In this document: in pieces, positions 40,259 to 64,000 of the stretch
Position numbering within the stretch: the stretch's first letter is position 1
Layout of the letters: each line of letters opens with the position of its first letter
Source: Desulfococcus multivorans
GTDB lineage: Bacteria > Desulfobacterota > Desulfobacteria > Desulfobacterales > Desulfococcaceae
Assembly: GCF_001854245.1 (NCBI RefSeq)
Contig: NZ_CP015381.1
Span: forward strand, 4,127,001-4,191,000
DNA: 64,000 nt
Direction: 5' to 3'
Translations under genes and position numbers: made by a program
The notes under the pieces: model-generated
What the model was told of the DNA's origin: nothing
Seen by the model: the letters and a program-made list of their open reading frames with translations, nothing else
Databases searched by the model: none

Positions 40259-40290
40259 AAAAAAAGGGGCTAACCGAAACGGCTAACCCC
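40259..40290 (-). terminator. Terminator of the tRNA-Leu gene
   Basis: On the minus strand GGGGTTAGCCG-TTT-CGGTTAGCCCC forms an 11-bp stem with two G-U pairs, followed by seven T residues. It lies just after the tRNA 3' end. The G-U pairs are mismatches on the other strand, which fixes the direction. Confidence 0.85.
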
Positions 40291-40300
40291 TTGAGTTCTA

Positions 40301-40358
40301 TGGTGCCGGGGGCGGGAATCGAACCCGCATGGGCTTGCGCCCGGAGGATTTTGAGTCC
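40301..40358 (-). tRNA. tRNA-Leu(CAA) 3' fragment = attL of the integrated element
   Basis: Reading the minus strand from 40358 to 40301: GGA, anticodon loop CTCAAAA (anticodon CAA, complement of 40351-40353), TCCTC, a long variable arm (CGGGCGCAAGCCC), the T arm GCGGGTTCGAATCCCGC, acceptor CCCCGGC and encoded ACCA. The 5' half (acceptor GCCGGGG, D arm, start of the anticodon stem) is absent: upstream of GGA the sequence becomes unrelated AT-rich DNA. This is the expected footprint of site-specific integration into the 3' half of a tRNA gene, with the element starting at about 40,359. Confidence 0.88.
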
Positions 40359-40845
40359 TTTGACGAAATTCTGAAATTTTGGCAAGTCTCAACCAATTTA
40401 AATCATTTCGGTTTTCTCAGCGTTTTTGGTTTTATTTGGGAACGTTAAATTTTTTATGGCCCTGACGGGCATAGTTTGGGCATAGCCCAGGCATAGGATC
40501 TATCGCACCAACCCTATTAAATTAATAACAAAATCATACCCACCTAAGCACTAAGGCTAACGTAGCACCCCCGTTTTGGCTGCTGCGATAATAGACACGG
40601 CGGTCCATGGCCTTTCTCCGACATCGAATCCACACTGCCGCACATGCCGTCGATGGCATCGCACAACCCATCCGTCGTTATACATCCCGTCGAAATGATG
40701 AAAAATAATCCACTCACCGTTAATAATCTCATCGCTTCCATTTTTAGAGCCCTTTTATATCCCCTATACCGCTCTCCCGACCAAAGAAGTGAATAAAACC
40801 TCATCCCACCACGCTCCCAATTAAAACCACACAAGGAGATTGATA
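40359..40845. other. Left arm of the element, mostly non-coding
   Basis: AT-rich with the direct repeats GGGCATAG, GGGCATAG and GGCATAG in about 30 bp (about 40,467-40,495). A minus-strand frame from about 40,741 to 40,544 could encode a 65-aa lipoprotein (hydrophobic start, ISTGC lipobox), but its ribosome site is weak and no family is recognised, so it is left as a possibility. Confidence 0.45.
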
Positions 40846-42443: not shown

Positions 42444-43570
42444 TTAAAATTGTTCGTTGAAAAAAACCTCGATGTCCCAGCGTTTGCTGTAGACGCGCAC
42501 GATATTAAACCGGCAATTAAAGTCAGAAAATCTAGTCACAAGGAACAGGCGGTTTTTGGGCTGATTCGGTTTGGATGTTTAGTTGCCGGTTTAATATCCT
42601 CATCGGCCAACTTAGTGTCGGTTGACAGCAGCGCCAGCCAATCTTTTTTTCGTTTGTCGCGTACGAACACCGGCTTGGCTGCAACCGAATCATTGAGCAT
42701 GACACGGGTACTGGCCAGGATCTTGGCGCGGCCACGGCGTTTTTTAAGCCGCCGGTAGATGGCCATCAGATTCAAGGACTGACCATTGAAGGTGTAGTGA
42801 ATCTTAGGCGACTTTTTCACCATGCCGATGATCTTGATGTGCTCAGCCAATGTGGTAACGGTTGCCGGCATCGTAAACCAGCTGTCCATCAGCAGGTATT
42901 TGGCAGAAACACCCGCTGAGAGAATTCGCTTTACCATGGTTTCAAGATGCGATGTTGCCTTTTCGGTAGCTTCTTTGCGGCGCTGGTATGCGCAGCAGCG
43001 CTTATCCAGGGCCTTTTGGCTGTCGCACAAGCGCTTTTCGGCATCCGAGGAAGACAACAGGGCAAAATCCATCGGAAGACAACTGGTTCCATCCGGCCAG
43101 CAGATGGTGAGCATCCGAAAGCCTTTCAAAAAGCGGCCGGTGCTGTGATCCCAGACTCTTGCGAGCAGTTCCACCCACTTGGAGCGGGATCGGTCATACG
43201 GGCTGTCATCAATGATGAGCACCGATTCGCGTTCATCGTTGGTCAGCCGGTTGAAAACACCAAACAGCCGCAGGCCCAGAGAAAGCAGCAGCCGACGCCA
43301 ATTGTAGGTCTGGCCCTTGAGTAACTCGTAGGCGGCGTCTTTGCCGAAAGGCAATTCGTTGTTGAGCACGATGCCGCGGAAGAAGTTCTTACCGACAAAG
43401 GGCAGTGTGAATATGGCTTTTGTCAAAGAGCGAACACTGTGGCCGTGATGTTTACGCACTCCACATCGGTGCATGAGAGTTGCGATTTTAAAACGGCCAA
43501 AGAAGTCATCGATTTTGTTTTGAACGTGAACAGGGTCTTGCGATTGGGAGACGATGCTGCTATGGTCCAT
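42444..43570 (-). pseudogene. IS4-family transposase, interrupted by a MITE and truncated
   Basis: From ATG 43570 about 325 codons read normally: DDSPYDRSRSKWVELLARVW (first catalytic Asp), KGFRMLTICWPDG, YLLMDSWFTMPATV (second Asp) and LLSTDTKLADED. A 90-bp insertion at 42,505-42,594 then shifts the frame; beyond it the original frame resumes as IVRVYSKRWDIEVFFNEQF, containing the catalytic Glu region, and stops. Normal members continue for roughly another 80-100 residues, so the 3' end is also missing. The element cannot move on its own. Confidence 0.85.
42505..42594. mobile_element. 90-bp MITE inside the IS4-family transposase gene
   Basis: Terminal inverted repeats TTAAACCGGCAATTAAA and TTAAACCGGCAACTAAA (inverted, one mismatch in 17). 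It is flanked on both sides by TA (42503-42504 and 42595-42596). Removing the 90 bp and one TA restores an uninterrupted transposase frame across GAGGATATCGTG. TA duplication is typical of IS630/Tc1-mariner transposases, which would have to act in trans. Confidence 0.85.
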
Positions 43571-47223: not shown

Positions 47224-47457
47224 TTGGATCGACGGGCGATTTCACCGGCGACATGTCGTGCGTTCATAAATGCTGGTACCAATCCTCGTGTAGCGGAGCG
47301 GGTCAAACGCTTTGGAAAAGGGGAAAGGGCAGAAAAGATAGCACTGGAGCCGGGGGATGCTGTTTCTACAATGAAAAATATGATTTCAAACTACCGCATA
47401 TATTTTAAGGTCTGCAAACTGAACGGCATCGTGCCGGAGGTTGGCACGAATGTATAA
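47224..47457 (+). CDS. Small hypothetical protein upstream of brxP
   Basis: A 77-codon frame ending YFKVCKLNGIVPEVGTNV, with 8 bp overlapping the brxP start (ATGTATAA), which suggests coupled translation. The sequence is basic and protein-like (RAFINAGTNPRVAERVKRFG). The only upstream start is TTG 47224 without a clear ribosome site, so the true N-terminus is uncertain. No family was recognised. Confidence 0.5.
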   Translation: MDRRAISPATCRAFINAGTNPRVAERVKRFGKGERAEKIALEPGDAVSTMKNMISNYRIYFKVCKLNGIVPEVGTNV

Positions 47458-49807
47458 TTACGAGTGGGACAAGCGAACGGGCAGGTACCGCCTGACGACC
47501 CAGACAGGGAAGTTTGTGGCCTGCGAAATCCGGCCAGTATTTGCAGAGGAACTGGCGCTTTTGGGGTTATGGGCACGTTTGGCGTTTGAACCGACAGAGC
47601 GGCATCCGCTGCTCTGGGCGAAGCAGAACGTGTATTTGTATCGCGGTGAAGAAATCGCTAAACTCCATAAGACACGTTATGGTAAGCCGCCGGACATCGA
47701 ATGGAAGGGCGTATTAGGCGAGAACGAAGGTTTACCGAAAGGTGAGAAGTTACTAAAAAAACAAAAAATAGTTCCAGTTGATGTCGGGGCACTGGTGGCT
47801 GAAAACCGTGAAATCATGTCCGCGCTTATAGCGGATACGCTCAAGCGCATTAAGGAGATGTATGACGGTTACACCGGAAAATGCGAAGCGATTTACATCG
47901 GCTTCAGCGGCGGCAAGGACTCGGTCGTTCTACTCGACCTTTGCCACAAGGTCCTTCCGTTGGACGTACCGGTTATTTTCAGTGATACGGATATGGAACT
48001 TCCGGATACTTACCGAGTTTGGGAAGAGATCCAAAAACGCTACGAAGGCCGCACGTTTTTGAAAGTCTCCGCTAAAACCCCCGCATTGAAAAATTGGCAA
48101 CTCTTCGGGCCGCCGTCGCAAGCGCTGCGCTGGTGCTGTTCCGTCCACAAAAGTACTCCCGCAATATTAGCGCTAAAGGAAAGGCTCGGAAAAAAGTCAC
48201 TCAGAACGCTGGCATTTGTTGGGGTACGTGGTGAGGAAAGTCAACGGCGTTTTGGATACGACGACATTGGAGATGGTTTGAAAAGCCAATCGCAGGTGAA
48301 TGCCATGCCAATTTTGGCGTGGTCCGCGCATGAACTGTGGCTTTACATTTTTGAGCATGATCTGGTTCTGAACGAAGCATACCGAAAAGGGGTACCGCGT
48401 GTGGGATGCCTGATGTGTCCAATGTCAACCGACCGCCAGAATTATTTGATACGGATGAATTATCATGAGTCAGTCGCGCCGTTTGCTGACGCGGTGCGTG
48501 ATACGATTGATCGCGAGTTTTCTTCTGAAGAAGACGAGGATGCGTTCGTTTACGAAGGCGGGTGGTATGCAAGGAAAAGCGGCGTATCCTTGAAACAAGT
48601 CATTGCGGAGCCAGGAATCGAACGCAAAAGGGACCGAGTGATTTGTGAATTTCCAATCGAAGCAGAGCCAGCCTTAAAGGAGTGGCTCAAAGCCACTGGT
48701 GAAATTAAAGGCGCGAATTTGACTCTTTGTGAGGACAGGCAGAGAGGTTTGCTTCAATGTGTCTGGACGAACGGAAAAGCAGATAAGTCTGTTTCCAAGT
48801 GGCTGGTATACGCCGTTCACAAGGCTATTGCCTGCATAGGATGCAACGCTTGCGAGGCGGAATGTCCGACAGGCGCGTTGCGTTTCGAAAAAGATACCTA
48901 TAGTGGAAAGCTGAAGGTCATTATTGATGAAGGGATGTGCGTTCATTGCATGAGGTGTTATACGCCCGACGAGGGTTGTTGGCGGTATTACTCAAAGCGA
49001 TATGCAGGAGCAAAGACGATGAACATCAGCGGTATCAACAAATATATGACGTTTGGGCTGAAGCCTGAATGGATTGAAGTTCTGGTGAAAGAGGGCGCGA
49101 ATTTCCGTCAGACAACCGCGCTAGGTAACCGGATGGTTCCAGCAGCTGTGACGTGGTTCCGAGAGGCGGGATTGATTGGAGATTCAACGGCTATAGCTAC
49201 AACATCGCTTTTGGAAGTTGGCAAGAAACGCGGTTTCAGCGATTTGCTGTTTTGGCAGTTGCTATGGCTCCGACTGTCAAATATCTCTCCCCTCGTGAAA
49301 TGGTATGTCTGCAATACGGATCTTAACTTGGAATATCCGGTGAAACGGATTGATGAAAAGCTATCACAATCCGTTAGTTCGGCATCGGTGAGGAAGGGTG
49401 CGTTGCAGTCGCTTTGCCAACTGGTTAAGAATTCACCGCTTTGCGAAGGAGACAGGGTGTTGATTGAAACCACAATGAAGGGCAGAACCGTTGAAAAGCT
49501 CACACGACGTGCGCGTTCGGTGGATCCGCTGGTAGTTCTTTACGGGCTTTATGTGATGGCGGAAAAGTCCGGACGCGATGCCTTCACCGTGCGACAGATG
49601 ATGGCGGCGGAGTTTGACGGGGAGGTTGTGTCACCCTTATCGGTGTTCGGAATTCCGCCGGATGAGTTTAAGAAGCTGTGCATGGGACTGGTGACGGTGC
49701 ATCCAGACCTCATCACGTGCAGCTTTACGCTGGGGCTGGACGAGGTGCGGGTGTTCCCGGAAACGAAAAGTCGGGACGATGTGGTGGCTCTGATTTTAGA
49801 AAGGTAA
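47450..49807 (+). CDS. brxP: BrxP: PAPS-reductase/ferredoxin/DUF4007-like protein
   Basis: A 785-aa multidomain protein. Residues 145-420 are a PAPS-reductase/DndC-like PP-loop ATPase with YIGFSGGKDSVVLLDL (SGGKDS at 153-158), FSDTDMELPDTY, RWCCSVHK, VGVRGEESQRR and GCLMCPMSTDR. Residues about 460-500 are a bacterial ferredoxin-like double cluster (CIGCNACEAECPTGALRF; CVHCMRCYTPDEGC). The C-terminal 260 residues resemble DUF4007 (NKYMTFGLKPEWIEVL, LGNRMVPAAVTWFREAGLIG). BrxP defines type 4 BREX, where it is thought to modify DNA by a sulfur-related reaction; this is unproven. It precedes brxC by 7 bp. Confidence 0.87.
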   Translation: MYNYEWDKRTGRYRLTTQTGKFVACEIRPVFAEELALLGLWARLAFEPTERHPLLWAKQNVYLYRGEEIAKLHKTRYGKPPDIEWKGVLGENEGLPKGEKLLKKQKIVPVDVGALVAENREIMSALIADTLKRIKEMYDGYTGKCEAIYIGFSGGKDSVVLLDLCHKVLPLDVPVIFSDTDMELPDTYRVWEEIQKRYEGRTFLKVSAKTPALKNWQLFGPPSQALRWCCSVHKSTPAILALKERLGKKSLRTLAFVGVRGEESQRRFGYDDIGDGLKSQSQVNAMPILAWSAHELWLYIFEHDLVLNEAYRKGVPRVGCLMCPMSTDRQNYLIRMNYHESVAPFADAVRDTIDREFSSEEDEDAFVYEGGWYARKSGVSLKQVIAEPGIERKRDRVICEFPIEAEPALKEWLKATGEIKGANLTLCEDRQRGLLQCVWTNGKADKSVSKWLVYAVHKAIACIGCNACEAECPTGALRFEKDTYSGKLKVIIDEGMCVHCMRCYTPDEGCWRYYSKRYAGAKTMNISGINKYMTFGLKPEWIEVLVKEGANFRQTTALGNRMVPAAVTWFREAGLIGDSTAIATTSLLEVGKKRGFSDLLFWQLLWLRLSNISPLVKWYVCNTDLNLEYPVKRIDEKLSQSVSSASVRKGALQSLCQLVKNSPLCEGDRVLIETTMKGRTVEKLTRRARSVDPLVVLYGLYVMAEKSGRDAFTVRQMMAAEFDGEVVSPLSVFGIPPDEFKKLCMGLVTVHPDLITCSFTLGLDEVRVFPETKSRDDVVALILER

Positions 49808-49814
49808 TGGGCGA

Positions 49815-52800
49815 ATGACTTTCTACAAAGACTATTTTGGGATCAGACCGGATTACGCGCCATGCATGACGCTGGCGGACATTAACAAGATGCCGGAGAC
49901 ATGGCTGGCTTTTTATCCGCATGATTCGTTTGTGGAGATTTTGCGGGCATTGCTTAAGAGCCTGAACGGTGGAAAAAAGACGCTCTGGATTACGGGTGCG
50001 TATGGTACGGGCAAGAGCCACGCGTCGCTGGTGCTGCAAAAACTGTTTACTGACGAAAAAGCGCGCGTCCAGAAATGGCTGGATTTGCGCAAAGCCCAGA
50101 TCCCGGACCCCGTGCGAAAGGGGATACTGGAACAAGGTAGCGAAAAGACGCTCGTTGTTTATGACGTGAACGCGGACGGCGTGGATGCGAAGAATCAATT
50201 CCTGATGCGCTTGCAGCGTGGTATCACAAAGGCACTTGAAGCGGGAGGATACACGATTCCGCTGAAAGGCAAGCTATATGAGGTAATTGAGCGTATCCGG
50301 CAAGATGGGCCGTATTTCTTTGAAAAGCGCGATGAAATGCAAGCGAGACTCTCGCACCTGAACGCGGGTATCAAGACAGCGGATGCGCTTGAGAGGAAAT
50401 TGCAGGATTTGAATTTGGAGCCGGGCCTTGTCAGTGACGCGATGCGAGTACTGGAGGCGAGGCATATCTATATGGGTTTGAGCGCAGAAGAGTTCTTGGA
50501 GTGGGTGGACGCATCCTTGAAAGCAAACAGTCTTTCCAAACTGGTCTATATTTGGGACGAGTTCTCGGCGTTCATGAATCGTAATCGAACGGCATTAAAG
50601 ACTCTGGAACAATTGGCGGAAGCTGCTCAGCAGGGGCGGTTTTATTTTGTACCGGTGACGCACACAGATATTTCGTCGTATGTGGCGGCGGGCTCCGAAA
50701 GCGCGAGGAAAGCGAACGACCGGTTCACGTTCAAGCGGATTGACCTGCCAAACGAAACCGCGCTTAAACTTGCAGCGGATGCCTTCGTTGTCAATGCGGA
50801 GAAGGCAAGAGAGTGGGAACAAGAGCGCGACGTGCTTTGGCACAGTGTGAACGTTGTGGCCGAAAACTACATGGTTGTCCACAAAGCAGGCATCGATACG
50901 GCGGATTTCAAGGGTATCCTACCACTACATCCGATGGCGGCATTTCTGCTGAAACATCTATCGGTGGCTATCGGATCAAACCAGCGGAGCATGTTCGAAT
51001 TCTTAAACGGCGAGGAGTTCAGGGAGTTCATTGAGAAAGGCGGGCTGGATGTTCCAGGTCATCAGCTTTTGACGGTGGATCATCTGTGGCGGTATTTCGT
51101 AGAACGGGATGACCTGGGGACGGGGCAAGCCGTACAGGAAGCCCGGGTGGAGTACGATAGACGAGAACAGGATTTGCAACCAGACGAGCGACGCGTGTTC
51201 AAGGCGGTGTTGCTGTTTGGCTTGATGGAACAGATGCAGGGAACGGGTCATCCGCTGTTGAGTGCGACGGTGGAAAATATCCTACGCAGTTTCGAGGGGG
51301 ACGGCGATTTGCAGGGCGTGGATGCGATTCTACGCAATCTAGAACAGAAGCATTGTTTCGCGATTATTAACGGGCGTTGCGAACGTTTCCTTGACCGCTC
51401 GGACACGAAAGAGATCGAAGAGAAAAAAGCGGCGTTAGATGGCAAGTTTGGCGGTCTCGTACTGAAAGACACCGAGACAGAGTTGGTTAAACAACTGAAA
51501 GGAGTCAACTACGGCGGTCGTTTTGATATACGCGCGGCTGGTGTCGGCGGTCTTTCGGCGTCAAGCATTGCGAGACGAGAGTCTTTTAGTGCGACAGGGA
51601 ACCGTGTGCTTGTGCAGTTCATTTTGGCACGGGATGAGCAGGAAAAATTGCGCATTCCTGACAAGGCAAGGGAATTGGCGAAACAGTTCAAAGACCACCG
51701 AATGCTGTTTGTGACGCTGCCGGAAGTCAGTTTTTGCCATGACAACGCAAAAGCATGGGAAATATTTACGGAAAACAGCGCTCATCTCGCATTGGCAAGA
51801 GATGGCGCGAGCAAGAGGGTGTTCGAAACGCAGGTCAGTAGCGCAAAGGAGGAGTGGTACTCCAAGGTGATGACCGCTACCAAACTCATCGTGTACAAGC
51901 CAAACCCAAACGGTGAACCGTTCACCGAAGAAGTGACTTGGGGGCAATTGAAAAAAGACTGGCTTACCGGCTATGCGAAACAGACATTCGAGGCATATAC
52001 GGACGATCTTTGTGGATTCAACATCAGCGCATTTGCCGCGCCAACCCACTTACAGAGCTGGGCGCTTGCAGGCATGGAATTCGACAGGTTCGCGAAGCCA
52101 GGCGCCTGGAGGACTGTTGTGGCGACGTGGAAGAAGAACGGTGTTACTGGTGAGGATGCATGGTTCGATGCGAAACCCAACCATCCGCTGACACAGTTGC
52201 GCGATTTTTGCAAAAAACGGCAGGACAACACAGTGGGTGCGGGAAATACCTGCTCATTACGCAAACTTTACATCGACTTGCAGCGTCCGCCGTTCGGACT
52301 GCTGTGCGTGCCGCATTCGGCCTTCGTGCTGGGTTATGTGCTGAAAACATGGTTGACCGGACAGCGCAAACTGCAATGGACGGATGGCGTGACAAGCAAG
52401 GCGCTGGACGCAGCGGCGCTGGCGGAAATCATCGAGACGGTGGTGAAAGACGACGGCGCCAACGCCATCAAGAACGAGAAAATGATTTGTCGCCTATCGA
52501 AAGAGGAAAAGGTGTTCATCGAACAGAGCAGCGTGATTTTCGAGAACAGTCCGCTTGCGGACGGGACGGTGGAGGCAGCGCTCAACGCGGTCGGGACACG
52601 GCTGGAACAGATTTCGCACCGCGTTCCACTGTGGGTTTTGCCGGAGTATATCCGTGCGCAAGCGGAGCCGCGCGCAGAGGCAATGGGCAAAGTTATTGAT
52701 GCGCTGTGCGCGGCGAATAGCATCAGTTCCAAAGGAGACACCGAAACTCGCGGGAACAAGGTGAAGGAGATTGGCGAGATGCTGCTGGCAACACCAGGTC

Positions 52801-53969
52801 TTGCGGAGGCGATGGCAAAATATATGACGTCGGTGGTTTTTGAGGAGGCATTCCAGCAATATGTCGATAGTGCCAAGCCGGAGTTAAAAGCCGTGGCGGA
52901 ACGTATTGGCGATTCGACCCACAGCTATTGCAGCGCGGTTAAAAAACGTTTTGCGGCGACGAGCGGTTGGCTGTGGAAACGCGGCGACGCCGAGTCCGTA
53001 CTGGAAGAGATTTACCGACAGACACTGTGCGCAGAGTATATCCGTAGGCTGGCTGGCTCATCGGGATACATAAGCTTCGAGGATGCGCTGAACCGCTTGC
53101 GCAACGCGGTGTTGAGCGAAAACAAGGTGCCGACGGAATTCTGGGCGAGGAAACATCCAGCGTTGCTGCGCTTCTTTGAATTGCTTATTAGACCGTCGAT
53201 GTCGAGCGAGGACGTGCAAACCTTCGGAGAGATTTTGGAACAGCAAATCGAGGTTATCCGCGAGGTGTTCTTCGACGTGACGCAAGCGCGGCAGCTGGAT
53301 GCGATTCGGGAAATTTTCGGAGAAATCTGGCCGATGGCCAGTGCGGAAGGTCGCGAGCTTTATAATGCCTTTCACCCAGATTCGGCGAGACTCGATGAGC
53401 AGAGCTTTAAGGTACAAGGTCGTGGCAAGATCGAGGAATACAGCCGTAAGCTGGTTTCTAAGCGGGTGGTAGCGCTGTGGCGCGAACACACAGGTACGGA
53501 GTCGCCTGATGATTGGAGCCGCAAACACGCACTGCCCGCCGAATGTGTTTTGACGATGGATGATGCCAAGAGTATCGTCGATGCGATCTCGAATCCGGGA
53601 GGGGTGTCGGCGGAAAGCTTACAGTCCGTGTATGACGAACTTGAAAAAGAGGGGGCATTTGTGGATGTGGCAGCGGCGGGTAATAAATTCCTAAATCGGG
53701 TGGTACCGGCTCGTTATCAAAAAATCGGGTTTAGTGTCGAAGAATTGGGGAATTGGTTATACAGAAAATTGGGTGACTCACCGGGCCGATGGTTAGCAGA
53801 CGTAGGGCTTCACGAAGCGGTCGAGGCGTTCGTTAAACAGGGATATGACAATTATGCGCGGAAGCAGGCCGAGGAAAAGGTGAATATGCTTTCCGATGCT
53901 GAGGCGAAGATATTACTCCTGAAGCTGATTGGTCAAATCCCCGATGTAGGGCTTTCGGTGCTGGAGTAA
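49815..53969 (+). CDS. brxC: BrxC/PglY-family ATPase of the BREX system
   Basis: A 1384-aa P-loop ATPase common to all BREX types. Walker A is TGAYGTGKSHASL (GAYGTGKS at 61-68) and the Walker B-like segment LVYIWDEFSAFM lies near residue 250; an AAA-type sensor region follows. The N-terminal FYKDYFGIRPDYAPCMTLAD and the very large helical C-terminal part agree with BrxC. The length is slightly above the usual 1,200 residues. It is 7 bp after brxP and 4 bp before pglZ, so one operon. Confidence 0.9.
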   Translation: MTFYKDYFGIRPDYAPCMTLADINKMPETWLAFYPHDSFVEILRALLKSLNGGKKTLWITGAYGTGKSHASLVLQKLFTDEKARVQKWLDLRKAQIPDPVRKGILEQGSEKTLVVYDVNADGVDAKNQFLMRLQRGITKALEAGGYTIPLKGKLYEVIERIRQDGPYFFEKRDEMQARLSHLNAGIKTADALERKLQDLNLEPGLVSDAMRVLEARHIYMGLSAEEFLEWVDASLKANSLSKLVYIWDEFSAFMNRNRTALKTLEQLAEAAQQGRFYFVPVTHTDISSYVAAGSESARKANDRFTFKRIDLPNETALKLAADAFVVNAEKAREWEQERDVLWHSVNVVAENYMVVHKAGIDTADFKGILPLHPMAAFLLKHLSVAIGSNQRSMFEFLNGEEFREFIEKGGLDVPGHQLLTVDHLWRYFVERDDLGTGQAVQEARVEYDRREQDLQPDERRVFKAVLLFGLMEQMQGTGHPLLSATVENILRSFEGDGDLQGVDAILRNLEQKHCFAIINGRCERFLDRSDTKEIEEKKAALDGKFGGLVLKDTETELVKQLKGVNYGGRFDIRAAGVGGLSASSIARRESFSATGNRVLVQFILARDEQEKLRIPDKARELAKQFKDHRMLFVTLPEVSFCHDNAKAWEIFTENSAHLALARDGASKRVFETQVSSAKEEWYSKVMTATKLIVYKPNPNGEPFTEEVTWGQLKKDWLTGYAKQTFEAYTDDLCGFNISAFAAPTHLQSWALAGMEFDRFAKPGAWRTVVATWKKNGVTGEDAWFDAKPNHPLTQLRDFCKKRQDNTVGAGNTCSLRKLYIDLQRPPFGLLCVPHSAFVLGYVLKTWLTGQRKLQWTDGVTSKALDAAALAEIIETVVKDDGANAIKNEKMICRLSKEEKVFIEQSSVIFENSPLADGTVEAALNAVGTRLEQISHRVPLWVLPEYIRAQAEPRAEAMGKVIDALCAANSISSKGDTETRGNKVKEIGEMLLATPGLAEAMAKYMTSVVFEEAFQQYVDSAKPELKAVAERIGDSTHSYCSAVKKRFAATSGWLWKRGDAESVLEEIYRQTLCAEYIRRLAGSSGYISFEDALNRLRNAVLSENKVPTEFWARKHPALLRFFELLIRPSMSSEDVQTFGEILEQQIEVIREVFFDVTQARQLDAIREIFGEIWPMASAEGRELYNAFHPDSARLDEQSFKVQGRGKIEEYSRKLVSKRVVALWREHTGTESPDDWSRKHALPAECVLTMDDAKSIVDAISNPGGVSAESLQSVYDELEKEGAFVDVAAAGNKFLNRVVPARYQKIGFSVEELGNWLYRKLGDSPGRWLADVGLHEAVEAFVKQGYDNYARKQAEEKVNMLSDAEAKILLLKLIGQIPDVGLSVLE

Positions 53970-53973
53970 TACT

Positions 53974-56103
53974 ATGATACTGAACGAGTATTGCGAATAC
54001 ATCAGAAACCCCCTCGCGGAGGCGAAGGCGCGGGTAGTTGTCGTGCCTCCGGGGGGGAGTTGGACGACGTTGCGCCGGTTTTGCCAAGAACGCGGCTACG
54101 TTGAGTTGCGTTTGAGCGATCTTGTGAGGGAAGGCGCGTGGCTCCCAATGCCTGATGAGGTCTTCGGGCGAGTACGCGATGTTATGACGGCGCAGCAGAT
54201 AAGTGGTAAGAGTTTAGTATTGCTGGGGATGCCTGGCTATCTTGCGTTGTTGGCAAACGAGAATAAACGGGCTGCGATTGTCGCTTTACGCGAATGGATA
54301 GACAGTGCGTCTGGGCAGGAAGCGGTCTGCTTTTTGCGTAGTGATGACGACACAGAGTTGATACTCAAGGATGTTTTCGCCAATCCGCGCTACCGCCAGG
54401 GGAAGCAACTGCTTGAAATAGACGCTGAAAAGATCGTGTCGCATGTCACTTCGGAAGAGGAGGAAAGAATCGCGGGGCGTACGGAGGTGATGCTGGTCGG
54501 GAACGATTTGGCCCCCTTCATCCCGGAATTGTTCGACACTTTTCAGAAATATTTGCGATATACCGAGGAGCATCCAAACGACAACTCTATCCGGCGGATT
54601 GTTGTTGCCTCGGAAGGACGGGAATTGGCCGGGCTCAGCGCTGAGGTGCGGCAGGTGGTGTGCCTACGGGATTTTGCTCGCGTGTTTTTCGATGTGGAAG
54701 ATGCCGAATTGTCCGAAGATGCTTTGCGGTGGATGTGTGAGTGGGGTAAAGGGGGTTCGGGGAAAACACTGTCGGAAACTCTCAAGACGCAGTTTTTCCC
54801 AGAAGGTGAGGTATCAAAGCGTGTCTTGCAAGTGTTTGATGGGTGCAAGAGGACAGAACGCGAGGCGTTATTTTGGCTGGTTAAACGTGTCGCTTCCAAG
54901 GGAAGTTACCTTGAGTATGTCACAAGGCAAGAGGGGATTCTTGTCAACAACTTTCGCTCCGCATATGTGGCAGGCGCTGCGGAATGGATAGATGAATCGT
55001 TAGCCTTTGCTGGCGAACGCAGGGATGCTATACGAGAAGCAAACGTTATAATGTCCGACACGGACATCCGGCAGTTCATTACGCGTTGCGAGGGCGAATC
55101 CACGTCTCGAGTAGCGCCGTGGTTGAACTGTGGGACAGACACGGAGCGAGCCGAATTACTGAGGCGTTGTGCAGTGGACGGACTTGTGTCAAATTCGGTA
55201 AAAGACGTTTATCCAGAAGCGGCAGCTTATCTGAATTCGGATCCCGTTTTCGACAACTTGGCTCTGGAAGATTATTTCAGGGAATACCGTGAACTGAAAA
55301 TGGCTAGCCGCGTTACACCAGAGTTTTACGTGAAAGCGCAGCAGGTGGTTCCTTTGAATTCAGTACAATCGCGAGACGTGATGGTGCAACGGTATGTATC
55401 GGACAATGTGTGCGCATTGCTGGTGGTGGACGCGATGGGTGCGGAGTGGCTTCCTATGCTAGTGGCGTTAGCGCGGGAGCGGAATATAGGCGTTGATTCG
55501 ATTGGGGTCGGCGAAGTGAATCTGCCGACAACAACGCGGTTCAACAACATTCATTGGCCAGACGTGGCTCGGCGGTTGCAGGATATTAAACGTTTCGACA
55601 ACATCGCGCATAATGGTATTGAAGCGCACGAGAAGCGTCGCGCGGAGGAGAATTTGGCAGGGGCATTGGATGTGATCGGTGGCGAGGTGTTGCCACGTGT
55701 GGCGGATGGGCTGATGCGGTTTGAGCGGGTGATAGTCACAGGAGACCACGGGAGTTCGCGGCTATCGGTGTTGGCGTGGCAAGCAGAACCGAGACTGGCA
55801 AGGACGCTTTCTTGTGATTTTGGTGCAGAGATCGCCGATTGGCGCTACCGTGAGCGGGCGGCACAAGGATTATGTCCGCCGGAACTTGAGGAGACGTTGG
55901 ACGGAAGGTACTGGGTGGTGCGCGGGTATAACCGGCTGCCCAAAAAGGGCGGCGGACAAGGCTTTGAGCTACACGGCGGAGCATCGCTGGAGGAGCGACT
56001 TGTGCCGGTTGTGATTTTCTCGAGGACAGGGCAATTCATGCCGAAGACGAAGACCGGTGGCAAACGTTTGCAGATTGTTGAGAAAGATGATTTTGATTTG
56101 TAG
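53974..56103 (+). CDS. pglZ: PglZ-domain phosphatase-like protein of the BREX system
   Basis: A 709-aa protein, the universal BREX component. Its C-terminal half is a PglZ domain of the alkaline phosphatase superfamily: ALLVVDAMGAEWLPMLVALA (about residue 480), VNLPTTTRFNNIHWPDV, VIVTGDHGSSRLSVLAW (about residue 585) and GGASLEERLVPVVIFSR. The N-terminal 450 residues are helical. The predicted metal residues (Asp in VDAMG, Asp-His in GDHG, His-Gly-Gly) are all present. It starts 4 bp after brxC. Confidence 0.9.
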   Translation: MILNEYCEYIRNPLAEAKARVVVVPPGGSWTTLRRFCQERGYVELRLSDLVREGAWLPMPDEVFGRVRDVMTAQQISGKSLVLLGMPGYLALLANENKRAAIVALREWIDSASGQEAVCFLRSDDDTELILKDVFANPRYRQGKQLLEIDAEKIVSHVTSEEEERIAGRTEVMLVGNDLAPFIPELFDTFQKYLRYTEEHPNDNSIRRIVVASEGRELAGLSAEVRQVVCLRDFARVFFDVEDAELSEDALRWMCEWGKGGSGKTLSETLKTQFFPEGEVSKRVLQVFDGCKRTEREALFWLVKRVASKGSYLEYVTRQEGILVNNFRSAYVAGAAEWIDESLAFAGERRDAIREANVIMSDTDIRQFITRCEGESTSRVAPWLNCGTDTERAELLRRCAVDGLVSNSVKDVYPEAAAYLNSDPVFDNLALEDYFREYRELKMASRVTPEFYVKAQQVVPLNSVQSRDVMVQRYVSDNVCALLVVDAMGAEWLPMLVALARERNIGVDSIGVGEVNLPTTTRFNNIHWPDVARRLQDIKRFDNIAHNGIEAHEKRRAEENLAGALDVIGGEVLPRVADGLMRFERVIVTGDHGSSRLSVLAWQAEPRLARTLSCDFGAEIADWRYRERAAQGLCPPELEETLDGRYWVVRGYNRLPKKGGGQGFELHGGASLEERLVPVVIFSRTGQFMPKTKTGGKRLQIVEKDDFDL

Positions 56104-56124
56104 TTTAAATGAGGGCACTCAATA

Positions 56125-57582
56125 ATGGTAAATACTGAAAAATTGCGGACGGCATTCCCGGACACGACGGTATATAAGGATCCGAACATCGTGGCGATCT
56201 TCAAAGCGGCGTCGATTCCGTCGTTTTTACGGGATTGGATTCTGAAGCGTAAAGCGGAGTCTGATGGTAGAATCCACGATGCTGAGGCGTTACGAAAATA
56301 CATTTACGAAATCATACCTCGCCAGGAGAATTTGCTGGAACTGAAGGACGCCGCACGAAGTGAGGGACTCACGAAGAAGTTTCTGGCCAAAATTGAAATT
56401 CAATTTAGCGTGCGTTCCAATGAGTACACGTTTGCGATTCCGGAATTGGGGCTTGGGCATGCTGAAACGCTGATTGATGATTATGTCTGGAACCGAATCA
56501 AAAATGATGTCGTAAAAACGGCTGGTGGCTGGGGACTGGTACAACTTGGGTACTGCAGTCCAGGCGATGATAAGCCCCGAGGATGTTTCACGCTTTTAGA
56601 GTACAAGAATTTTTGCCCGTACACGATCGATCTGGACGCCTATAGAGAGGCTCGCAGTCAGTTTACGGCCGAAGAGTGGCTCGACGTTGTTTTGGGAGCG
56701 ATTGATTACAACCCGGAGGGATACGAAGATTGGGTTCAGAAACACACGGTGCTGACGCGCCTGCTGCCGTTCATTGAGCCACGACTGAATCTGGTGGAAC
56801 TGGCTCCGAAGGGAACGGGTAAGTCTTATCTGTTCGGGCGGGTAGGTAAATACGGCTGGTTGGTAAGCGGAGGGACGCTGACGCGGGCGAAAATGTTCGG
56901 CGATATCAATGGAAAGAGCCCTGGTCTGGTCGCAACGAACGACTTTGTAGCGCTGGACGAAATCCAGTCAATCAAATTCCATGACCCGAGCGAGATGCAG
57001 GGCGGGTTGAAAGCCTACATGGAAAGTGGGGAAATCACGGTCGGCAAGAATCGTATCATAGGTGGGGCCGGTGTCATTCTGCTGGGGAACATCCCGCAAA
57101 CAGAGATGGACGAAACCAGAGACATGTTCCAGAGGCTGCCGGGAGTGTTTCACGAGTCGGCATTGCTGGATCGATTCCACGGTTTTATCCGCGGGCGCGA
57201 CATCCCACGTATGAGTGAGAACCTTAAAATCAACGGTTGGGCGCTGAACACTGAGTATTTCTCTGAAATTATGCATCTACTGCGCCAGCCGGCGGAAACA
57301 TTGATTTACAGGCATGTCGTCGAAAGACTGGTGGATTATCCTATAAACGCTGACACACGAGACACGGAAGCGGTTTTGCGGTTGTGCACGGCCTACCTTA
57401 AACTAATGTTTCCGCATGTCGCAGATCCAAACGGAATCGACAGGTGGGAGTTCAAACGGTACTGTCTGCGTCCCGCCGTGCAAATGCGCACGGTGATCCG
57501 GCAGCAGTTGCAGAAGATAGACCCGCTTGAATACGGAGGGAAAAACATAGCCGCATACACGTTACACGAGGTAGAGCAATGA
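56125..57582 (+). CDS. brxL: BrxL, AAA+ part without a Lon-type protease domain
   Basis: A 485-aa protein. The AAA+ domain has Walker A LAPKGTGKSYLFGRV (about residues 226-240) and the segments LVSGGTLTRAKMFGDINGKS and FVALDEIQSIKFHD (Walker B). The N-terminal 200 residues are the BrxL helical part (TVYKDPNIVAIFKAASIPSF). Classic BrxL proteins are about 680 aa and end in a Lon-like domain with a Ser-Lys dyad; here the protein ends at residue 485, after EYGGKNIAAYTLHEVEQ, and no such domain follows in any frame. The stop overlaps the next start by 4 bp. Confidence 0.87.
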   Translation: MVNTEKLRTAFPDTTVYKDPNIVAIFKAASIPSFLRDWILKRKAESDGRIHDAEALRKYIYEIIPRQENLLELKDAARSEGLTKKFLAKIEIQFSVRSNEYTFAIPELGLGHAETLIDDYVWNRIKNDVVKTAGGWGLVQLGYCSPGDDKPRGCFTLLEYKNFCPYTIDLDAYREARSQFTAEEWLDVVLGAIDYNPEGYEDWVQKHTVLTRLLPFIEPRLNLVELAPKGTGKSYLFGRVGKYGWLVSGGTLTRAKMFGDINGKSPGLVATNDFVALDEIQSIKFHDPSEMQGGLKAYMESGEITVGKNRIIGGAGVILLGNIPQTEMDETRDMFQRLPGVFHESALLDRFHGFIRGRDIPRMSENLKINGWALNTEYFSEIMHLLRQPAETLIYRHVVERLVDYPINADTRDTEAVLRLCTAYLKLMFPHVADPNGIDRWEFKRYCLRPAVQMRTVIRQQLQKIDPLEYGGKNIAAYTLHEVEQ

Positions 57583-59857: not shown

Positions 59858-60130
59858 CTATGCCGAGATCCCGGAAATCTGATTCATCATTGACATCAGC
59901 TCCCGACTCTCCTTAACCAGACGCCGGGCATCTCGCCGCCGGGCGATCGCCTCAGCACTGTAAAACCCGTGTTTCCAGGCATTCTTATTGCCTTGGGGGG
60001 CACCGCTGCCTTTGGCACCACCGTGAATCCTGCAACGGCGCCTACCCAGCTCGGGCGGATTCTGGCAGAGGGCTCCGGACCTGGTTTTAGCACCGCAGAT
60101 GATAGGTTGATCCTCTGATTTTGTACTCAT
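59858..60130 (-). CDS. HGGxSTG-type phage/element-associated protein
   Basis: A 90-aa protein with a Cys-His pattern (CGAKTRSGALCQNP, RCRIHGG) and the GAPQGNKNAWKHGFYS motif of the small HGGxSTG/GNKNA family found next to phage and transposon genes. A helical basic tail follows (RRRDARRLVKESRELMSMMN). The ATG has GGGGGAGAACGGGGG upstream. It is 18 bp after the 162-aa gene, and the two are normally adjacent in other elements. The function is unknown. Confidence 0.75.
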   Translation of the reverse strand: MSTKSEDQPIICGAKTRSGALCQNPPELGRRRCRIHGGAKGSGAPQGNKNAWKHGFYSAEAIARRRDARRLVKESRELMSMMNQISGISA

Positions 60131-61108: not shown

Positions 61109-61365
61109 TGGGAAGATCCTTCCTAAAGCACTCAATATTAATGGGGTTGTTTTTACTTTATATTAAAATATGGGAGGTCAGAGCAGGGATGTTAAGTCAG
61201 GACTACCAATTTGTTGGCTCAGATAATTTCTGAAGACCATGGGTTCCCACTGCGCTCTGTGATGATTCTCGGAAGCTGCAATTGATGGGTTGTTTTGGGC
61301 TACCCGCGCGTCCAGCCAACTTTTGCAGCGCCTCCATGGTTCAGTGACACGGCTGAAGGAAGGGA

Positions 61366-61828
61366 GTTATGAGGCGTCACGTTTGTCACGATCTCGTCGC
61401 CCGAATCAATCCAAATATGACGGCGATTTTGGCATATTTAAAGGGTGATTCCTTGAATCCGTCATGTCTGTCATATTTGTCATGTACTTTATTTTTATTA
61501 TAAAAATGAAAATATTAATCCGGCAATTAAAGATCTGAACAAGAAGTTGTTAAGAATATCGCTAACAACCTAAAATATTTGATCAAGAAAATTATGGTCT
61601 GTTTATGTATATAATTATCAATTTAATATATAAAATAATAAAAGGATACATGCAGTGCTATAGTTATTTATATTTTTTTTATGTAATAAGAAATCGAAAA
61701 AAGAATGTGACAGACATGACAGACATGACGGATTCAAGGAATCACCCTTTAAATATGCCAAAATCGCCGTCATATTTAAACGTTTTCCTGGGCCGAGAAT
61801 ATGACAAATATGACGTCTCATAATCCCC
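61366..61828. other. Candidate replication origin: long inverted repeat around an AT-rich core
   Basis: A perfect 61-bp inverted repeat (61413-61473 and 61717-61777) flanks about 240 bp of very AT-rich DNA. Further out, imperfect arms (TTATGAGGCGTCACGTTTGTCAC near 61,366-61,390 and TATGACAAATATGACGTCTCATAA near 61,799-61,823) continue the symmetry. TGTCAT/ATGACA words recur at both inner edges (GTCATGTCTGTCATATTTGTCATG; GTGACAGACATGACAGACATGACGG, both over 20 nt only as combined repeats of 9-mers). It lies directly downstream of the primase/helicase gene. The 887-bp gap holds no gene. Confidence 0.6.
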
Positions 61829-61995
61829 CACCCTCCGGATGATTCACATGCGGGGAAAAGATGGAGAGGTGGGGGTAGGCGGCAGAGTGCGGATGACACA
61901 GCAGAGAAGTAATCAGACAAAGCCGCTAAAAAAAAAAGCCGGCACACCTATCACAAGAGCACCGGCTTCGATCAACCAACTGCGGACTTAATTCA

Positions 61996-64000
61996 TCACG
62001 GCTCATCCCACGCGAACTCTACGCCAAGATGGTCTCTGAACAACTCCCGGCAGCGCTCCAGGCTAGGAAGTTGATACTTCATTCTACGTTGCCCGCTGGA
62101 TTGTCTCGTCTGGCGGACCTCCTTGCACATCCTCGTTAGCTTTATACCGAATTGCTTCTGGGTGATCCGGCCCCTGATAGTCTGCTGGCGGCAAAACTCC
62201 AAGAATTCATCGTACAGCAACTCTTTTACTATCTCACTAGGCCACTCTGTACTGCCATCGTTGGAAGACACACACTCTTCGCAGAACTCGAACATCTTTG
62301 ACGTGAGCTCGCACAGCTTCCCGGTTTGCAACCGCTCAAACCAAAATTTATCCGTAGGATCCATCGTGGCCAGCACTTGGTCGAACAACGCCCCAGTCTT
62401 TGGGGAATCCCGAAGATTGACTTTCGACAAATCCACCTGCAACAACTCATAGAGCAGCGCCTCAACCCCGCCAGCGTCCATCTGCTTGTTTAAAGCCTTG
62501 AAATATTCAAAATCACATCCGTGATCCCCGCTGACATCCAGCACGACAAACCGTCGTTCATCCCTCCCGGCAGGCACCACCCAGTCATAGTTGCTGGCCA
62601 TGATCAACCGGATGTGATTTTCGATTTCAAACTGGTTGAAGCCCTTGGGCTCGATCCGCATTGTAGGCTCTGTAATCATCGCCCGGAGCATCCCCGTGGC
62701 TGTCTTGCTGCCTGAGCACGCCGCCTCGTCCGCGAAGACGAGTAAGGCATTTTTCAGGTGGTCGTTGAACCGGCCTGTCAATGAGCCTTCGTTTGCGACC
62801 TGACAGTAATGCCGCCCGAAGATCTTGCCAAACGTATTGACAAAGGTCCCTTTTCCGGTACCTTGACGCCCACGCAGGACCAGTGCTGTCCCCGGGCGCG
62901 CCCCACCGGGATTCTGGACAGCATCCGCCATCCATGCCCATACGTAGTCATAAATCGCCTGATCTCCGTTTGCGATAACCTTAAAAATGTGTTCCTTGAA
63001 CAGCGAACAGTCACCGAGGATCGGTTCCACGGCCAGCCCCTTGTACAGATTGTACCAGCCCGGGTGATCCTTGTTGGGGTCCATGATGATACCCTCATAG
63101 GCGCGTCTTCCGGGCCACGTTACCCACACCTCGGAAATCGGACGCCACTTTTTTCCCAATCTTATGGTTTTATCCGCATAGAAGCTAACGAAGTCCGACT
63201 TTTTAGAAAAGGTCTCGTACGGCTGCCCGTTCACCGGGTTGATCCCTTCGGCCATGATAGCGAACTTCCCGTTCAGGTTCACGACCGCATGCTTCTCATT
63301 CAGAGCCTCTAGAGCTTGGATATTGTCTTCGGTATCGATGTCCTCGGTCTCTGTATCATCGACAGACGCGCCCCATTCCTCGCCCGTCACTGCCTTATAG
63401 ATGTCTTTCCACTTCGTGCGGTTGGGGTCCCCTTTGCAGGAGTTATGGAAGCAGTGATACCCGGGCAGCCCACCGTCCTCACCGACGATGATCGCAGCCT
63501 CGTTCCCTTTGTGGGACGGGTCAAAAAGGCAGACATCCAGGCAATACAAGGTCTTATCGTTTTTCTCCTTAACCGTGTATTTGATCTCTTTCTCGTTCAG
63601 GAATGCCGCGACATCCACAGGAGCGTACTTAAGCTTTTCCTTTTTAGGCCGACCTCTCTTCGATTTCGCGGCTTCAATTTCAGCCTCGACCTCCGTGACC
63701 CACAGCGACAGTTTATCGTAACCGTCAGCCGCGTATTCCATGTCCCCAACCTGATAAATGTAGGACATACGGTGGTGCGTGTCGTAGTCACTTGGGTCCC
63801 CCTTCATGGCCTTGGTGCCGTATAGCTTAAAGATCCGGCCAGGGTTGAACACAGTCTGATCGATGTCCTGTGATCCGTCGCCGTTCAGCTTGAACTTCAG
63901 GCAGGCCAGCACCCGCTTCACGAAATCAGACGCAGCTCTGACATTTTCGTTCTCATACCGATAGAGTAGGTGCGCACCATTGCCGGACACTCCGCGGAAC
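61996..64000 (-). CDS. Phage/plasmid-type primase-helicase (5' end outside window)
   Basis: At least 667 residues of an element-encoded replication protein. The visible N-terminus has SGNGAHLLYRYEN, the end of an archaeo-eukaryotic-type primase domain. A zinc-binding-like segment (CLFDPSHKGN, YHCFHNSCKGDP) follows. The helicase part is a superfamily 3-type, DUF5906-like ATPase with Walker A LRGRQGTGKGTFVNTFG, Walker B ALLVFADEAACSG and sensor LIMASNYDWVVPAGRDERRF. A GTG at 63988-63990 is in frame, but the primase domain clearly continues beyond 64,000. Next to the palindromic origin-like region it forms a P4-like replication module. Confidence 0.85.
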   Translation of the reverse strand, partial: FRGVSGNGAHLLYRYENENVRAASDFVKRVLACLKFKLNGDGSQDIDQTVFNPGRIFKLYGTKAMKGDPSDYDTHHRMSYIYQVGDMEYAADGYDKLSLWVTEVEAEIEAAKSKRGRPKKEKLKYAPVDVAAFLNEKEIKYTVKEKNDKTLYCLDVCLFDPSHKGNEAAIIVGEDGGLPGYHCFHNSCKGDPNRTKWKDIYKAVTGEEWGASVDDTETEDIDTEDNIQALEALNEKHAVVNLNGKFAIMAEGINPVNGQPYETFSKKSDFVSFYADKTIRLGKKWRPISEVWVTWPGRRAYEGIIMDPNKDHPGWYNLYKGLAVEPILGDCSLFKEHIFKVIANGDQAIYDYVWAWMADAVQNPGGARPGTALVLRGRQGTGKGTFVNTFGKIFGRHYCQVANEGSLTGRFNDHLKNALLVFADEAACSGSKTATGMLRAMITEPTMRIEPKGFNQFEIENHIRLIMASNYDWVVPAGRDERRFVVLDVSGDHGCDFEYFKALNKQMDAGGVEALLYELLQVDLSKVNLRDSPKTGALFDQVLATMDPTDKFWFERLQTGKLCELTSKMFEFCEECVSSNDGSTEWPSEIVKELLYDEFLEFCRQQTIRGRITQKQFGIKLTRMCKEVRQTRQSSGQRRMKYQLPSLERCRELFRDHLGVEFAWDEP

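Follow-up and report, generated by a model that had tools for sequence, protein, structure and literature searches.

What is the role of the long inverted repeat that lies behind a primase-helicase gene in the chromosome of Desulfococcus multivorans? The window that we analyzed for this question, a 64-kb stretch of the chromosome (NZ_CP015381.1, positions 4,127,001 to 4,191,000), had been described in a first-pass annotation as containing perfect inverted arms of 61 bp, with weaker symmetry extending outwards, TGTCAT-type words repeated at the edges like iterons and an AT-rich core. All these elements are present. The perfect arms are in fact complementary in 62 of 62 positions and lie about 240 nt apart, and the weaker symmetry resolves into longer arms of 139 nt each, which are 81% complementary and spaced by 203 nt (table 1). 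The runner-up among perfect inverted repeats with arms within 2 kb, in the entire window, measures 19 nt, which excludes a chance origin of the arms. The words at the edges belong to a set of twelve 9-mer iterons of the GTCAY type (1.8 would be expected in the 510-bp stretch considered), of which ten form tandem clusters with a period of 9 bp and two stand single, all twelve being paired at exact mirror positions about 61595. The core is 80% AT, against 44% for the window. At 61412/61778 the arms pass sharply from 100% complementarity to about 60%, and the symmetry outside the perfect arms then fades outward. Rfam found no RNA families in the three stretches searched.

Table 1. Features of the putative origin and its surroundings (window positions unless marked chr., for chromosome)
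Feature	Position	Strand	Details
Left putative half-origin	61355-61493	+	139-nt arm, perfect part 61413-61474
Left outer iterons	61376-61393	+	Two 9-mers, GTCACGTTT GTCACGATC
Left single reversed iteron	61413-61421	-	GTCATATTT
Left inner iterons	61461-61487	+	Three 9-mers, GTCATGTCT GTCATATTT GTCATGTAC
AT-rich core	61488-61702	none	80% AT, putative melting site
MITE-like dispersed repeat	61513-61628	none	Lies in core; flanked by TA; terminal inverted repeat TTAATCCGGCAAT...; decayed at right end
Right putative half-origin	61697-61835	-	Mirrored arm, perfect part 61716-61777
Right inner iterons	61703-61729	-	Three 9-mers, mirror of 61461-61487
Right single reversed iteron	61769-61777	+	GTCATATTT, mirror of 61413-61421
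Right outer iterons	61797-61814	-	Two 9-mers, mirror of 61376-61393
Primase-helicase gene, 3' part	61996-63999	-	667 of 863 aa in window; whole gene chr. 4188996-4191587
MITE-like family sites	42505-42594; 61513-61628; chr. 490508-490623; 3784957-3785073; 2525746		
Left attachment repeat	40274-40362	+	Copy of 3' part of tRNA-Leu(CAA)
Direct repeats bounding island	40274-40362; chr. 4215830-4215918		End of tRNA-Leu(CAA)

We interpret the region 61355-61835, with a probability of roughly 87%, as the iteron origin at which the linked primase-helicase starts replication of an integrated mobile island. This sequence-based reading relies on the mirrored iterons, the AT-rich core, the adjacency of the gene, the recurrence of the arrangement behind related genes, the island context and the layout of published origins. 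The stop codon of the primase-helicase and the start of the arms are 161 bp apart, which places the arms immediately 3' of the presumed initiator gene, the reading frame of which is intact over 863 codons. Its product scores 92.5 bits against DUF5906 (PF19263), above the gathering score of 27.6, while a VapE-like domain is barely above its cutoff. The first ~400 residues match the primase domains of other proteins, and motifs typical of archaeo-eukaryotic primases, IDVD and SGNGAH, can be recognized by eye in this N-terminal part. In predicted structures, the helicase part resembles the NrS-1 polymerase and the SaPI5 primase-helicase in fold, and the last 94 residues, folded alone, reach a pLDDT of 82 with a winged-helix topology. 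The best matches of this C-terminal domain are the DNA-binding domains of RFX1 and RFX5 (Z of 7.3 and 6.3, modest values), and RFX5 is also matched in a profile search (E of 0.006); such modest RFX-type matches to a predicted domain indicate a fold, not a function. By prediction, then, the protein has the initiator features of a helicase fold of hexameric type and a putative DNA-binding domain at the C-terminus. Upstream and in the same direction is encoded a protein of 254 residues that weakly matches a single-strand binding protein of a phage (E of 0.0096). On the other side, behind the putative origin and in the direction of the primase, lies the gene of a 90-residue protein with an HGGxSTG domain (window 59858-60130, minus strand), which scores 26.3 bits against the terminase small subunit, below the cutoff of 120.

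The arrangement was then compared with the regions behind related primase genes, the first set of which was drawn from three small plasmids, two phages and 20 sites in genomes belonging to the same order; a period was scored when 14 of 18 positions were equal at the given offset, with at least five G/C. Among the 18 loci of this set that share the helicase part, 11 have a period of 9 within 500 bp downstream and two further ones a period of 11. The loci at which the N-terminal primase part alone matches (L058-L064) have no period-9 clusters, which fits iterons going together with the helicase and C-terminal part. Searching with the alignment of the primase family gave a second set, of 84 loci, from 79 viral contigs and five genomes of the phylum. 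Period 9 is present within 600 bp downstream in 28 of these 84 loci versus 25 of 997 control windows (2.5%), each of the other periods from 6 to 15 being present in zero to three loci; two thirds of the second set have no period-9 cluster by this fixed test, a point against the origin reading. Inverted repeats show a parallel enrichment, since scores of at least 16 are reached by 21 of 109 downstream regions versus 2.0% of 1572 controls, and scores of at least 20 by nine of the 109 versus 0.1% of the controls. Some contigs are closely related to one another, so that the enrichment is real and its exact size uncertain. The locus of the window is itself counted among the 18 and the 109. The repeat of the window is the most extreme case, with a score of 69 (the next being 38) and a longest perfect stretch of 62 (the next being 20), its arms being far more perfect than those in the 108 other loci.

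The same plan is written in other words in the relatives. On a Roseomonas plasmid (NZ_CP024585.1), GTGTCCAAG GTGTCCAGG GTGTCCACC face three copies of ACCCTGGAC, and the iteron words of plasmid pMP1 of Vibrio vulnificus (NC_012758.1) are ATGGAAAAC ATGGAAAAT ATGGAAAAG, whereas arrays in islands consist of GTAGGACCA, TTGGACTAC or CCCGGCTCA. Both plasmids have, like our locus, a related primase-helicase and then intergenic inverted iterons of 9-bp period round an AT-richer core, a putative origin; they differ in being free plasmids, in their words (GTGTCCAGG and TTTCCACG) and in lacking long perfect arms. As far as sequence comparison goes, the occurrence of the same layout on free small plasmids counts in favor of the origin reading. 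No sequence word is common to all downstream regions, as would be expected if iterons are specific to each element, and AGGGTTTCGG is modestly enriched (7 of 28 vs. 11 of 353). When the iteron array alone was searched in viral contigs, eight contigs were returned, one of them with a weak primase match, indicating that the iteron word has no diagnostic value on its own. The arm sequence has no second copy in the 4.46-Mb genome and is absent from 194 related genomes and from the viral and genome collections searched. In the records of relatives that were inspected, no origin is marked in the annotation.

Published phage-inducible islands have gene, iterons and AT-rich stretch in exactly the order seen here, and plasmid maintenance has been shown for one of them (PMC6092414). 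The Rep helicases of SaPIs recognize iterons via their C-terminal domain, apparently as two bound hexamers, and the same mode of binding is described for the SCC helicase Cch2, whose site lies downstream of its own gene (PMC7581432). Compared by the order of their elements, PICI and SaPI origins (pri-rep-ori; PMC6092414, PMC7581432) likewise lie 3' of the initiator gene, in an integrated island with a fused or adjacent primase and helicase. The present system differs from them in its size of ~48.5 kb with BREX genes, its own iteron word, its 62-bp perfect mirror arms, the MITE-like repeat in the core and an initiator of the DUF5906 / NrS-1 branch.

The initial annotation had likened the region to the origin of satellite phage P4, a comparison that survives as regards an origin, given the recurrence of the layout, and fails as regards kinship: the primase-helicase scores 47.2 bits against the P4-primase family TIGR01613, below the curated cutoff of 108.7. 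The alpha protein of P4 combines primase and helicase in one polypeptide with an origin-binding C-terminal domain that recognizes iterons, and P4 has two sites, ori and crr. The likeness is thus functional only, and in contrast to the two separate sites of P4 one compact site was found here behind the gene. (P4 ori is mentioned in PMC6092414.) NrS-1 polymerase, the closest solved structure to the helicase part, is likewise an initiator of PrimPol type; no comparable region was found behind its primase gene, which counts against the origin reading, and its reported recognition sequence of 8 nt occurs twice, on opposite strands (PMC7102993).

The island context is defined by a tRNA-Leu(CAA) gene (chromosome 4215857-4215943) with an adjacent tyrosine recombinase gene, and by an 89-bp copy, 98% identical, of the 3' part of this tRNA and its flank within the window (table 1). 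In a genome of the same genus (G001), 1.3 kb without match come after the right flank and the tRNA, and then sequence matching the window below 16.8 kb, from which it follows that the ~48.5 kb between the tRNA-Leu repeats are an insertion relative to that genome. The stretch 16.8-40.3 kb of the window is also missing from G001 and may be a second element. Inside the tRNA-Leu island, homologues of BrxP, BrxC, PglZ and BrxL follow one another at window 47441-57582, a row that we take to be a phage-defence set of BREX type 4. PICIs are compact islands with int, regulators of the alpA/rpr type, a pri-rep-ori module and often terS. The present island has an integrase and att repeats, together with a match to terS that remains below cutoff, and we do not class it as a whole as a PICI, from which it differs in size and content.

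The first-pass annotation regarded dispersed copies elsewhere in the chromosome as an argument against its origin reading, and here the outcome is divided: the arms are single-copy, as reported above, and 116 bp of the core are dispersed, matching two other long genomic copies at 89-91%. These 116 bp end in TA-TTAATCCGGCAATTA...TAGTTGCCGGTTTAA-TA and belong to a family of repeats of ~90-120 bp with TTAAWYCGGCAAYTA ends between TA dinucleotides. Such ends are also present at further sites, among them a pair spaced by 90 bp in the window (42505-42594), and one copy of the family interrupts an IS4-type transposase gene. We read this MITE-like repeat, from its sequence features, as a small non-autonomous element inserting at TA. 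Without it, the core would measure 99 bp with 86% AT instead of 215 bp, a length within the inter-arm span of 33-113 bp of most best-scoring relatives. The decay of its right end indicates that the insertion is not recent.

The insertion may have damaged this copy of the origin, and one could go further and consider the region a former iteron origin that is now dead, disabled by the MITE-like repeat, with IS remnants nearby, and the island a fossil. In keeping with this possibility, which we regard as rather unlikely, are the age of the insertion and the presence of IS21-type transposase fragments in the same operon region. However, the intact frame of the primase, the failure of the insertion to hit any iteron and its own AT content of 76% all speak against inactivation, as do the arms, which are still perfectly complementary even though decay would have spoiled their pairing. 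The GTCAY repeats could alternatively be the binding sites of a regulator of the operon with no part in replication, an idea to which the tandem operator-like words and the genes on both sides lend some color; it is nevertheless highly improbable, since the region lies 3' rather than 5' of the primase gene and related primases are repeatedly followed by mirrored arrays flanking an AT-rich core, irrespective of which gene comes next. The annotation had also suggested a hairpin or cruciform for processing or packaging, to which transfer may be added, and 62 perfectly paired positions would indeed form a stable stem once single-stranded; yet we rejected this suggestion as barely credible, because the arms are so far apart, no relative keeps a comparable stem while the iteron layout is kept instead, and there is no linked relaxase or clear terminase, the HGGxSTG protein included. 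Reading the region as a small transposable element bounded by long terminal inverted repeats, finally, would account for inverted repeats flanking a partly dispersed core but was equally rejected as most improbable, for the arms are single-copy and absent from the genomes and collections searched, their symmetry fades outward without ending at any target-site duplication, and the dispersed part is delimited, within the core, by shorter ends of its own.

Under the preferred reading of a replication origin, the C-terminal winged helix of the primase-helicase would bind the 9-bp GTCAY iterons, so that the two opposed arrays might seat two hexamers face to face on either side of the AT-rich core. 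These self-loading hexamers would melt the core, and the primase part of archaeo-eukaryotic type would prime outward synthesis after induction or excision; the MITE-like repeat would be a passenger whose arrival stretched the core to 215 bp from an earlier 99 bp. That the arms are perfect is probably due to a recent event, gene conversion or template switching, in which one half-origin was copied onto the other, as suggested by how sharply perfect symmetry gives way to about 60%. A possible alternative cause is selection for equal halves.

The reading as an iteron origin of an already known kind is well supported, what is added here being its generalization to the DUF5906 branch and two unusual features, the perfection of the arms and the MITE-like repeat in the core. 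We tentatively propose, at somewhat less than even odds, that mirrored 9-bp iterons round an AT-rich core are a general and so far unlisted property of the DUF5906 branch, in phages, plasmids and islands alike, and that the perfect arms reflect active homogenization of half-origins, or a requirement that both halves be equal if two hexamers are to be loaded, maintained even though a transposable repeat has stretched the core. For tens of phages, plasmids and islands with DUF5906 primase-helicases, the comparison predicts where the origin lies and which initiator goes with which iterons, and the equal half-origins with their natural insertion offer a ready-made test of the permissible spacing between two self-loading hexamers.

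Two minor observations concern loci L005 and L007. A protein of 1716 residues in the island (L005:12536-17686, minus strand) has a weak match to AAA ATPases and could be a defence NTPase. At L007:7005-7910, overlapping frames repeat SQSPRIGAMVQT / LNHCPDSRGLR beside transposase genes, which looks like a CRISPR array.
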